Source: Planctomycetota bacterium (GTDB taxonomy: Bacteria; Planctomycetota; Phycisphaerae; UBA1845; UTPLA1). From it: 36,018 bases of DNA. The stretch spans positions 1-36,018 of the forward strand of contig QEVG01000041.1 in the NCBI GenBank assembly GCA_003576905.1, read 5' to 3'. A program made the translations under genes and the position numbers. This document shows positions 27,680 to 31,162 of the stretch, piece by piece. The notes under the pieces are model-generated. The model saw nothing but the letters and a program-made list of their open reading frames with translations, was not told where the DNA came from and did no database searches. Within the stretch, counting starts at the first letter, position 1. Each line of letters begins with the position of its first letter.

Positions 27680-27888
27680 GCCGCTTCTCCGGGCCCCCGA
27701 CCTCTCCGCGCCGCCGCGCGCCGACGCGAGACGCTCGCCGCTCCGGCCCGTTCTCTGAGCCGGCCGCCGGCGTGCCGGATCATAACCGAAACCCGCCCGC
27801 GCCCAGCCGCGCCGGGGGCCGGCATTTTGCCGGATCGGCGGCGATCGGTCAGAATCCCGCCCGAGCCTGCAAACCGCGGAGAGGAGCC

Positions 27889-28248
27889 ATGAGCGATAAG
27901 GACACGTCCGTCGCCGAGCTGCGCGAGATTATGCACCAGTTCGTACAGGAGCGCGACTGGAACCAGTTCCACAGCCCGAAGAATCTTTCGATGGCCATCG
28001 CCATCGAGGCGGCGGAGCTGATGGAGCACTTCCAGTGGCAGGACGTCGACGCCGCGCGCGACATCCGCGAGTCACCCGAAGACATGCGCCAGGTCCGCGA
28101 GGAACTCGCCGACATCGTCGCCTACGTCGTCTCCTTCGCCAACGCACTCGACATCGACATCAGCACGGCCCTGCGCGAAAAGATGATCAAGAACGCACAG
28201 AAGTATCCCGCCGCCGAATTCCGCGGACGATTCCGCCGTTCGATGTGA
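27889..28248 (+). CDS. MazG-like nucleotide pyrophosphohydrolase
   Basis: 119 residues, one all-alpha NTP-PPase domain. The metal-binding acid pairs are in place: ExxE at 40-43 (IEAAELMEHFQW) and EExxD at 71-75 (REELADIVAYV). K101 and the final KYPAAEFRG segment match the single-domain MazG-like/dCTP-pyrophosphatase-type subgroup (RS21-C6-like). It would split a noncanonical or excess dNTP to dNMP and PPi. The ATG at 27889 is preceded by GGAGAGGAG; the frame is open further upstream but without this signal. It ends 8 bases before the convergent PTPS-like gene. Confidence 0.87.
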   Translation: MSDKDTSVAELREIMHQFVQERDWNQFHSPKNLSMAIAIEAAELMEHFQWQDVDAARDIRESPEDMRQVREELADIVAYVVSFANALDIDISTALREKMIKNAQKYPAAEFRGRFRRSM

Positions 28249-28256
28249 CGCCCCCG

Positions 28257-29135
28257 TCAACCGGACGTGTACTCTGCGTACGTCTTGGCCGTTTCCCACA
28301 CACGCACCCGCCGCAGCCTGGCCGGGCTCATCTGCGGCTCCAGGATCTCCCAGATCACCCGGGCGATGTTCTCCACCGACGGATTGAGCCGGGCGAACTC
28401 CTCCGTGTCGCTGTTCAGGTGCTTGTGGTCGAGCCGGTCAATCACCTCGCGCTTCACCAGCGACTCAAACGCCGGCAGCGGCAGCACCGAGCCGGTGCGC
28501 GCGTCGACAGGTCCGGCCACCGTCACCTCCACCTGGTAGTTGTGCCCGTGCCCGTTCGGGTTGTTGCACTTGCCGAAGACCCGGCGGTTTTCCTCGTCGG
28601 ACAGTCCCGGCACGTGCAGCCGGTGCGACGCCGAAAACTCGAAGCACTGCGTCAACTCGACCATGGTCAGGTCTCCTTGCCTCACCGCGTAGGACAGGTA
28701 GGGCGTCGCCCACATAGACAGCGACTCCAGCCGGCATTGCGGCGGCACCAGCGGCGCGATCTTGCGATAGACGCCCGCCACCAGCCGCTCGCCGGTCAGC
28801 CGAACACCCTCGACGCTCAGCCGCTGCGCCGCCTCCGGTATCGCGTGACGCCGCAGCAGGTTGTCCAGCTCCTGAATGTTCACGAGATACCCCGTCACCG
28901 GGTCGGGCGTTCCCGACACGATCACGCGGAGCACGAGGTACGGCGCAACGCCCACCGCCGACGGCCAGCCGCCCCACGAATTCGTCACCGGCAGCGCCCC
29001 CTCAAAGCCGCTGTCGCCGTGCGCGCCGCGAACCCAGTCGCGGTCGATCGAAAACCGGATCTCGCGCATCAGCCGCACGCCGCGGCCCCCCGCGGCGCCG
29101 CCGCCCGCTCGTTCAGATGTCGCATTCGCCGCCAT
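28257..29135 (-). CDS. tandem 6-pyruvoyl-tetrahydropterin synthase-like protein
   Basis: 292 residues with two PTPS folds in a row. The C-terminal copy (about 163-292) is complete: zinc His171 (SASHRL), His196 and His198 (NGHGHNY), Cys190 in FGKCNNPNGHGHNY, the Asp236-His237 pair in RLDHKHLN, and Glu281 in VWETAK. The C-x5-HGH spacing is that of eukaryote-type PTPS, not the C-x3-HGH of QueD. The N-terminal copy (about 25-150) keeps the DPVTGYLVNIQELD strand but none of the zinc His, so it looks non-catalytic. The reaction is probably conversion of 7,8-dihydroneopterin triphosphate to 6-pyruvoyl- or 6-carboxy-tetrahydropterin. The start is uncertain: ATG 29135, GTG 29078 or ATG 29069 are possible, and anything further upstream runs into tRNA-Leu. 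Confidence 0.82.
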   Translation of the reverse strand: MAANATSERAGGGAAGGRGVRLMREIRFSIDRDWVRGAHGDSGFEGALPVTNSWGGWPSAVGVAPYLVLRVIVSGTPDPVTGYLVNIQELDNLLRRHAIPEAAQRLSVEGVRLTGERLVAGVYRKIAPLVPPQCRLESLSMWATPYLSYAVRQGDLTMVELTQCFEFSASHRLHVPGLSDEENRRVFGKCNNPNGHGHNYQVEVTVAGPVDARTGSVLPLPAFESLVKREVIDRLDHKHLNSDTEEFARLNPSVENIARVIWEILEPQMSPARLRRVRVWETAKTYAEYTSG

Positions 29136-29367: not shown

Positions 29368-29381
29368 GCCGCGACGGGCAT

Positions 29382-30854
29382 TCAGATCGAAGCGGCGATC
29401 TGCCGGAAATGATGGCCCGTGATGGCCAGCGACATCGCCTCGGCAAAGGCCCGGCGATGAAAGACCAGGGCCCGCGTGACGAACTTCCAGTAGGCCAGCC
29501 GCCCGCTCTTGAGGACTCCCATCACCCACAACGAACGCACAAAGGCCCGCACGTCGCTCGTGGTGATCGGAATGCGCGGCCCGCTCGGGCGATACTCCCC
29601 CAGAAACGTGATGATCCGCCGGTAGTAGTTCTTCGGCGTGTACAGCCGTCGCACCAGGTCGCGGTAGCCGTCAAGCAGCTTCTGGCGATCCAGCTTCGGC
29701 ACGAAGTTGAGCACCGCGTCGAGGTTGTTGCCCGTGCTGTGGCCCAGCAGACGGCCCTCCTCCTGAAGCCGCTTGAAAAGCTGCGTCTCCGGCAGCGCCG
29801 TCAACAGGCCCACCATCGCCGCCACCACGCCCGACTCCTGGATGAACCGCCACTGCCGCTCGAAGATGTTCTCCCGGTCGCTGTCGAACCCGACGATGAA
29901 CCCGCCCATCACCTCCAGCCCGGCCTTCTGGAGCTTTTTCACGTCCGCCACCAGGTCCCGACCCGTGTTCTGCACCTTCGAGCATTCGCCCAGACTCTCC
30001 TCGTCCGGACTCTCGATGCCGATGAACAGGCGCTTGAACCCCGCCCGGACCAGCAGGTCGGTCAGCTCGTCGTCGTCGGCGACGTTCAGCGACGCCTCGG
30101 TCAGAAACGTGATCCGCGGCCGCCGGCGCTCGCGCCAGGCGATCATCGCCCGCAGCAGGGCCTTCACCCGCGCCTTGTTGCCGATGAAGTTGTCGTCCAC
30201 GATGAAGACCGGGCCGTTCCACCGCGCCTCCAGCAGCGAATCCAGCTCGGCCACCATCTGTGCCGGTGCCTTGACCCTCGGCACGCGGCCGTTCATCACG
30301 ATGATGTCGCAGAATTCGCAGTTGAAGGGACACCCGCGCGAAAACTGGAGCGACATCGTCGCGTAGTGGCGAAGGTTGATCAGGTCCCACCGCGGCGCCG
30401 GCGTTTTCGTCACGTCCGGACGCCCGGCGGCCTGGTAGACCGGCCTGAGCGTCCCGCGGCGCATGTCCTCTACCAGCGACGCCATGAGTTCCTCGGCCTC
30501 GCCCTTCACCACGTGCCGCACTTCCGGAAATCGCTCGCTCCCCGTCGTGAAAAGCGGCCCCCCCGCGATGACCGGCTTGCCCATCCGCCCGCACCGGGCG
30601 ATCGCCTCCCGCGCCGAATCGGCGTGGACGATCATCCCCGAGATCATCACGAAATCGGCCCGCTGAATGTCCGCGTCGCGCAGCGACTCGACGTTCATAT
30701 CCACCAGCCGCAGGTGCCAGTCCTTCGGCAGCATCGCCGCGATCGTCAAAAGCCCCAGCGGCGGAAACGCCGACTTCCGCGCGATAAAGGGCATCACGTG
30801 CGAAAAGCTCCAGAATGTATCGGGCGTCGCCGGCCAGATGAGAAGTACGTTCAT
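29382..30854 (-). CDS. B12-binding-domain radical SAM protein (DUF4070 type)
   Basis: 490 residues. An N-terminal Rossmann domain of cobalamin-binding type (about 1-135) lacks the D-x-H-x-x-G cobalamin-ligand motif (the place reads VDMNVES). The radical SAM core (about 160-370) has its cluster Cys at 175, 179 and 182 in SRGCPFNCEFCD, and GGFIVGFDSD as a later SAM-binding motif. The C-terminal region (about 390-490) matches DUF4070, the family that also contains HpnP, the hopanoid C2 methylase. Most members are uncharacterised methyl- or ring-modifying enzymes, so a lipid target is possible but unproved. Start MNVLLIW at 30854 is chosen as the first strand of the B12 domain; an in-frame ATG 12 bases upstream is equally possible. 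No hopanoid genes are nearby. Confidence 0.83.
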   Translation of the reverse strand: MNVLLIWPATPDTFWSFSHVMPFIARKSAFPPLGLLTIAAMLPKDWHLRLVDMNVESLRDADIQRADFVMISGMIVHADSAREAIARCGRMGKPVIAGGPLFTTGSERFPEVRHVVKGEAEELMASLVEDMRRGTLRPVYQAAGRPDVTKTPAPRWDLINLRHYATMSLQFSRGCPFNCEFCDIIVMNGRVPRVKAPAQMVAELDSLLEARWNGPVFIVDDNFIGNKARVKALLRAMIAWRERRRPRITFLTEASLNVADDDELTDLLVRAGFKRLFIGIESPDEESLGECSKVQNTGRDLVADVKKLQKAGLEVMGGFIVGFDSDRENIFERQWRFIQESGVVAAMVGLLTALPETQLFKRLQEEGRLLGHSTGNNLDAVLNFVPKLDRQKLLDGYRDLVRRLYTPKNYYRRIITFLGEYRPSGPRIPITTSDVRAFVRSLWVMGVLKSGRLAYWKFVTRALVFHRRAFAEAMSLAITGHHFRQIAASI

Positions 30855-31162
30855 TGCGGGTCCCATGTGTGTTTCGATAACGGCCGAACAGAAGGATTCT
30901 ACCGGCGGCGCCGACACCGGAAACGTCAAAATTGACCTCCAGGTCAATTTTCCACTCCCACCCCGAGCGACTCGCCGCCCCCGGCGAATATCGACCGCCG
31001 CCTGGGGCATTTGTCCCCGACGCGGGTTGCCGGACGGCCCGCGCCCCGCGCATAATGTCCCCGCTTACGCGCGGCCGGAGAGTGGGACCGCCGGTCAGCC
31101 GTCCGCCCGGGCGGACGGGCCGTTTCTCACCGCCGCGCAACATCAACCGGGAGGCGCACGCA

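Follow-up and report, generated by a model that had tools for sequence, protein, structure and literature searches.

Published signatures divide the 6-pyruvoyl-tetrahydropterin synthase (PTPS) family into PTPS-II, which serves biopterin synthesis and carries CxxxxxHGH, QueD or PTPS-I with CxxxHGH, PTPS-III with ExxHGH and a PTPS-I/III hybrid with CExxHGH, and the paper that gives them also predicts about 50 COG0720 proteins for the biopterin pathway (PMC5041015). Biopterin is called rare in bacteria and archaea by a 2026 review (PMC13259868), and two gut Actinobacteria are reported to make it (PMC5227711). The title of Kong et al. (2006, FEBS Lett 580:4900; cited in PMC3546692, PMC5227711 and PMC5615194) ascribes bacterial tetrahydrobiopterin synthesis to single- or dual-domain PTPS orthologues, and because of this title the dual-domain kind of biopterin PTPS cannot be called new. 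Our full-text searches, in the top results of most of them and with few subscription papers included, found neither an emptied planctomycete N-terminal domain nor a divided PTPS active site in print, and no work on biopterin synthesis in planctomycetes.

The window, by which we mean the whole stretch of 36,018 nucleotides of planctomycete DNA that was analysed, encodes a protein of two PTPS domains (Table 1). We consider it a probable bacterial PTPS-II, in which the C-terminal domain would act as 6-pyruvoyl-tetrahydropterin synthase, an SDR would then reduce the side chain, and the N-terminal domain would be a pseudo-domain serving assembly. The minus-strand frame is open for all 292 residues and is not a chance frame, since the two-domain protein is present in 73 of 101 genomes, its own included. 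The open-reading-frame list begins the same frame at 29381, and translation could as well begin with a GTG at 29078 or with an ATG at 29069 as with that at 29135; the start is uncertain because residues 1-18 are unconserved and have low AlphaFold confidence. Among the loci compared, many of them with short flanks, only the MazG-like gene recurs beside the PTPS gene, in one close relative, and so the window neighbours give no pathway link here. The MazG-like gene is at most a candidate member of the pathway, and for the B12-binding radical SAM gene there is no evidence of membership.

Table 1. Features of the window at and around the two-domain PTPS gene.
Feature	Coordinates	Strand	Basis and remarks
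Two-domain 6-pyruvoyl-tetrahydropterin synthase (probable PTPS-II type)	28257..29135	-	292 aa from ATG at 29135; motif, Pfam, solved relatives, AlphaFold model
N-terminal T-fold domain lacking catalytic and zinc residues (probable pseudo-domain)	28665..29078	-	Taken from the candidate GTG start (29078) up to residue 157
C-terminal domain, probably catalytic PTPS-II: three zinc His, Cys, Asp-His, Glu	28260..28664	-	Stop codon at 28257-28259
MazG-like nucleotide pyrophosphohydrolase, convergent neighbour	27772..28248	+	Same neighbour in one close relative (L024/L005, one genome)
B12-binding radical SAM protein with DUF4070, upstream, same strand as PTPS gene	29382..31010	-	Family models

The tandem arrangement claimed in the preliminary description is borne out by Pfam, by hhalign and by an AlphaFold model, and translation confirms its reading of CNNPNGHGHNY (C-x5-HGH) and RLDHKHLN in the C-terminal domain. 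The Pfam PTPS family (PF01242) scores the whole protein at 130.8 bits, above its cut-off of 22.4, in two stretches of which the best is 161-290. The protein has the CxxxxxHGH of PTPS-II and neither the ExxHGH of PTPS-III nor the CxxxHGH of QueD, the last having been correctly given in the preliminary description, judging by the signatures in PMC5041015. In a residue table of eight positions per domain, the seven catalytic and zinc residues are all kept in the C-terminal domain of the window protein and in 15/15 planctomycete relatives tabulated, and the eighth position, Thr in rat, is Ser in 12/16 planctomycete C-terminal domains. The proposed closeness to animal PTPS holds both by sequence, where the solved relatives rank as 1b66 (118.8 bits), 3i2b (113.4 bits), 2g64 (90.9 bits) and then the QueD-like 2oba (45.4 bits), and by structure, where 3i2b and 1gtq reach Z 19.9, 2g64 18.6 and the best E. 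coli QueD 16.1. We take 1b66 and 1gtq to be rat PTPS. It is this combination of motif, residues and similarity that carries the case for PTPS-II, against which stands a score of 86.6 bits for the PTPS/QueD family model TIGR00039 (6PTHBS), below its cut-off of 125.5. That the C-terminal domain is instead a QueD, making 6-carboxy-tetrahydropterin for queuosine, appears very improbable: the QueD model TIGR03367 does match, at 64.2 bits, but below its cut-off of 89.25, and the motif has five residues where QueD has three.

Phylogeny bears on the same question with less decision. Rows were taken from 32 of the 43 loci of a public-genome scan (L033, L037, L041, L048, L057, L059 and L062-L066 were omitted as near-copies, partial or unneeded) and from 18 fetched QueD/PTPS-III stretches, all but two of which (L134, L138) gave a row. 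A quick search produced a tree of 71 rows and a careful search an unrooted tree of 65, with L003_Q, L060_A, L046_A, L058_A2, L061_A2 and L047_A dropped; the planctomycete N-terminal domain is absent from both, being too diverged. The quick tree splits 21 QueD/PTPS-III rows from 50 PTPS-II rows, the window C-terminal domain among the latter (support 95), and in the careful tree the QueD/PTPS-III rows again split off without the window protein (96/94) and the 16 planctomycete C-terminal domains form one group (99/94). In the best trees the window protein is thus not nested in QueD. A forced grouping with QueD gave p 0.305 in a first AU test (unrejected) and p 0.046 in a second (barely rejected), a forced grouping with animal PTPS gave p 0.167 (unrejected), and in the careful tree a branch with support 98/88 unites the planctomycete C-terminal domains with the QueD/PTPS-III rows against the other PTPS-II rows. 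There the planctomycete domains lie in between these two sets of rows, on a side that depends on the root. This place and the first AU test count for the QueD assignment and against PTPS-II, and the tree leaves the deeper kinship unsettled.

The genomes tell more about which protein serves queuosine. Tgt is present in the window's own genome and its QueC-like match is weak (116 bits), so that no QueC-linked QueD is known here, which is the remaining point for a QueD role. The QueC-like protein itself lies on another contig (G000 contig C26, 71184-71825) and is weak although Tgt is present. A QueC match above 150 bits is absent in 14/17 genomes of the same family, full-length QueC elsewhere scoring about 195-262 bits. 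Against a QueD role, four relatives (G017, G028, G036, G039) have the two-domain gene together with a separate C-x3-HGH protein less than 1 kb from QueC, and because this protein adjoins QueC the queuosine role is filled there by another protein than the two-domain PTPS. The same is probable in the window's own genome, which holds two other PTPS proteins, one on contig C26 with LEPLHGH (the ExxHGH signature of PTPS-III) and one on contig C53 with CERLHGH (the CExxHGH hybrid signature), in a frame that runs to the contig end; the latter could do the job. Two other PTPS in the genome, along with QueD/PTPS-III rows that stand apart in both trees, leave the preliminary description's preference for a biopterin-type pathway in place. 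A further assignment, a PTPS-III-like folate enzyme working in place of FolB, would account for FolB not being found in 28 of the 31 genomes searched, the own genome included; we regard it as the least probable of those weighed here, as ExxHGH is missing from the window protein and is held by the C26 protein of the same genome, and proteins like the latter occur in relatives.

For PTPS-II, the partners expected in the genome are partly there. A FolE was found (contig C58), as was an SDR (contig C35), although no clear sepiapterin reductase, and both lie on contigs other than the window's (C65), which counts against a biopterin role. To trace it, all 101 genomes were searched for the SDR that adjoins the two-domain gene in relatives G032 and G050. 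A score of at least 180 bits (next best 55) was taken as the two-domain gene and one of no less than 162 bits (next best 116) as the SDR, both thresholds being chosen after the score gaps had been seen; G061 was counted as SDR-positive from two clear fragments, and G088, with a 53-residue fragment of 63% identity, as without the two-domain gene. Both genes are present in 66 genomes, the two-domain gene only in 7 (G026, G030, G041, G054, G070, G094, G100), the SDR only in 3 (G067, G072, G090) and neither in 25 (Fisher p 2.6e-14, uncorrected for kinship). The direction is the same in families f1, f4, f5 and f8 (in the order both/gene only/SDR only/neither: f1 15/0/0/2, f2 2/0/0/1, f3 0/0/0/1, f4 17/2/1/7, f5 5/3/0/5, f6 0/0/0/1, f7 1/0/0/0, f8 26/2/2/8), and the 69 genomes that are at least 90% complete give 52/4/2/11. 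In 8 genomes, each from family f4, less than 1 kb separates the SDR from the two-domain gene, and in four others measured, where the two share a contig, the distance is 10-95 kb. This co-inheritance, the FolE in the genome and the FolE and SDR neighbours of PTPS genes in other phyla lend support to the suggested tetrahydrobiopterin-type synthesis. Such synthesis by bacteria with the two-domain PTPS is likely, on grounds of inheritance rather than chemistry, and the 7 of 73 two-domain genomes that have no SDR weigh against it.

The end product may be biopterin or another 6-substituted pterin, and the SDR is a putative reductase of its side chain. The SDR of the own genome resembles FabG and 7-alpha-HSDH chains, and its best 60 matches do not include 2bd0, the sepiapterin reductase of Chlorobium, a point against biopterin; 2bd0 ranks 9th for the operon SDR of Herpetosiphon and 4th for that of a Terriglobia MAG, and for each of eight SDRs no sepiapterin model is among the best 25 NCBIfam families. 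Aromatic amino acid hydroxylase, present in 18/101 genomes (17/73 with the two-domain gene, 1/28 of the others), was not found in the own genome, which likewise counts against biopterin, and it was rejected as the pterin user here. Pterin-4a-carbinolamine dehydratase is present in the own genome and in 60/73 two-domain genomes vs 14/28 others, an association too weak and unspecific for a specific partner. A PTPS-II whose product is a tetrahydropterin other than biopterin, through a different SDR reduction or later glycosylation and with a use in redox, light protection or signalling, is accordingly a possibility that we hold only tentatively: the linked SDR is not clearly of the sepiapterin reductase kind, no hydroxylase was found in the own genome, and pterin glycosides are described for cyanobacteria and Chlorobium in PMC3546692, and nothing direct speaks against it.

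The N-terminal domain departs further from an active PTPS than the loss of its zinc His, as noted in the preliminary description, would suggest. The profile alignment shows other residues at all of its zinc-His, Cys, HGH, Asp-His and Glu positions, and by itself it reaches 16.6 bits with Pfam PTPS, whose cut-off is 22.4; hhalign nevertheless places it with other PTPS domains at 94.7-97.5%, its profile score being alike for the upstream (A, 97.3) and downstream (B, 97.5) domains of other phyla. The AlphaFold model (pTM 0.82) gives it a T-fold of strand, strand, two helices, strand and strand with a short extra helix, with block pLDDT of 76-95 at residues 61-157 and below 50 at 1-15, 34-36 and 42-60. 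Could it be a decaying duplicate without function? Every catalytic residue is gone, and it evolves faster than the C-terminal domain, with identities to 19 relatives of 0.49-0.81 vs 0.67-0.86, yet NSWGGWPSAVG and other stretches are conserved in at least 90% of 20 proteins, the modelled fold is confident, and the domain is retained in the two-domain proteins of 73/101 genomes. Compared with two same-genus relatives, and with dS near saturation, dN is well under dS in this domain (dN 0.142 and 0.156, dS 1.14 and 0.67), as in the C-terminal one (dN 0.093 and 0.108, dS 0.77 and 1.13). Decay therefore seems unlikely to us, and the N-terminal domain is probably a conserved pseudo-domain that acts as a structural partner of the catalytic domain.

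The public-genome scan yielded, by our own sorting, 16 loci of the planctomycete two-domain type and 27 others. By open-frame clustering, 14 of the 27 (five of these Herpetosiphonaceae) have a FolE-like gene nearby and 10 an SDR-like gene, with one FolE (L047) and six SDRs compared with family models; beside the cyanobacterial PTPS genes no FolE or SDR was seen. PTPS pairs are fused in Herpetosiphonaceae, in L046 and in some cyanobacteria, triple fusions occur in Nostocaceae, and adjacent single genes occur in L042 (Terriglobia), L045 (Dehalococcoidia), L047 (Deltaproteobacteria) and L060 (Myxococcales), the other loci having single genes. Upstream and downstream copies separate in the careful tree, nine A rows forming one group (93/90), and the middle domains of two triple cyanobacterial chains group with cyanobacterial B in the quick tree. 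Among the first-copy A domains of other phyla tabulated, 6/12 are complete and 6/12 incomplete, and the residue table shows Asp-His lost in L060 B and in the single-copy L055.

Several of these loci deserve description in their own right. In L047 (4172-5743, Deltaproteobacteria MAG) the FolE beside a PTPS pair is 523 aa long and has a central LAGLIDADG domain, which is probably an intein. Three PTPS domains per chain are found in cyanobacteria of the Dolichospermum/Anabaena kind (L057-L059, L061-L064); in L058 and L061, the two tabulated, the first domain is without Cys, the catalytic His and one of the zinc His, and the other two domains are complete. L055 (1564-1983, Planctomycetota MAG) has a single C-x5-HGH PTPS with FolE adjoining, and no second PTPS was noticed beside it. 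L033, labelled 'Cyanobacteria bacterium CYA', holds a PTPS of the planctomycete two-domain type, and the frames on either side of it cluster with loci from Phycisphaerales, so the assembly may be mixed or wrongly labelled. The tandem PTPS-II proteins of L035 (8001-8807) and L058 (1580-2845) pass the QueD cut-off of 89.25, at 127.7 and 194.7 bits, because the repeats add up, and naming them QueD is probably wrong.

In the myxococcal MAG locus L060 (6446-7386), A has kept Asp-His and is missing both the Cys and the first zinc His, and B is the reverse. A check of 97 genomes, this MAG and relatives, found a match in 59, and the best 30 of these 59, the L060 genome included, were read (L147 and L150-L178). 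In all 30 loci A precedes B, which is followed by FolE, one A being cut by a contig end. The first zinc His of A is Leu in 29/29 readable proteins, and its Cys position is another residue or a gap in 29/29 (L171 has a Cys one place on); A has Asp-His in 30/30 and Glu in 2/30. The three zinc His, Cys and Glu are present in B in 30/30 (the loop of L175 is shorter), with Asp in 0/30 and His in 22/30. Mean pairwise identity is 62% among the 29 A and 53% among the 30 B proteins. These loci were picked by similarity and probably belong to one clade, and for this reason they are better treated as a single event that was then retained than as thirty. The division of catalytic residues between A and B implies that the two would work only together. 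On balance we lean towards the view that the PTPS-II of several bacterial lineages combines two unlike T-folds, a helper A and a catalytic B, in place of a homo-oligomer, with the residues of the myxococcal pair so divided that only a mixed assembly would work, and with the planctomycete pair fused and its helper a pure pseudo-domain. The planctomycete protein would thus show another outcome, with B complete and A emptied and fused. The suggestion that the inactive copy is a built-in subunit fits both the divided residues of the myxococcal pairs and an N-terminal domain that is conserved, predicted to fold and apparently dead.

In known PTPS the Cys/Asp-His set lies across subunits, and a mechanism can be proposed for the window protein on this model. 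FolE would supply dihydroneopterin triphosphate, from which the C-terminal domain, with zinc on its three His and with its Cys/Asp-His set, would remove the triphosphate and rearrange the side chain, giving 6-pyruvoyl-tetrahydropterin; the co-inherited SDR would then reduce the side chain to yield a tetrahydrobiopterin-type pterin. The N-terminal domain would play no part in catalysis and would offer the ring assembly a T-fold position and contacts. Lacking Asp-His, it could not complete a working site, and provided that subunits share the triad as they do in known PTPS, each site would need a second C-terminal domain for this.

Should this reading be correct, a biopterin-type pterin pathway would be common in one planctomycete order (73/101 genomes sampled), and 56 of these 73 genomes are without a hydroxylase to use its product. 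With the A/B pairs, nature provides a way to test whether the PTPS active site spans subunits, and other tandem PTPS-II proteins may be misnamed QueD where repeats sum past the cut-off, as in the two tested. Compared with the systems described, the C-terminal domain shares its motif and all catalytic residues with animal PTPS (human 3i2b, worm 2g64, and 1b66/1gtq), at Z 18.6-19.9, but the animal enzymes are single-domain chains whereas the planctomycete chain is fused to a putative pseudo-domain. QueD of E. coli (4ntm, 3qna) has the same fold, at Z about 16, but C-x3-HGH in place of C-x5-HGH, and the QueD-type protein of four planctomycete relatives is a separate gene near QueC. The whole two-domain model also aligns with the tandem T-folds of urate oxidases (Z 11.2-13.1 over 191-235 residues, rmsd 4.0-5.5) and of GTP cyclohydrolase IB (Z 11.2), enzymes of other chemistry; since identity is 6-10%, the likeness speaks for a like arrangement alone and not for function. 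With the dual-domain bacterial PTPS of Kong et al. (2006), likened here by the title of that paper, the window protein shares two PTPS domains per chain, and it differs in its planctomycete host and in an N-terminal domain without any catalytic residue.
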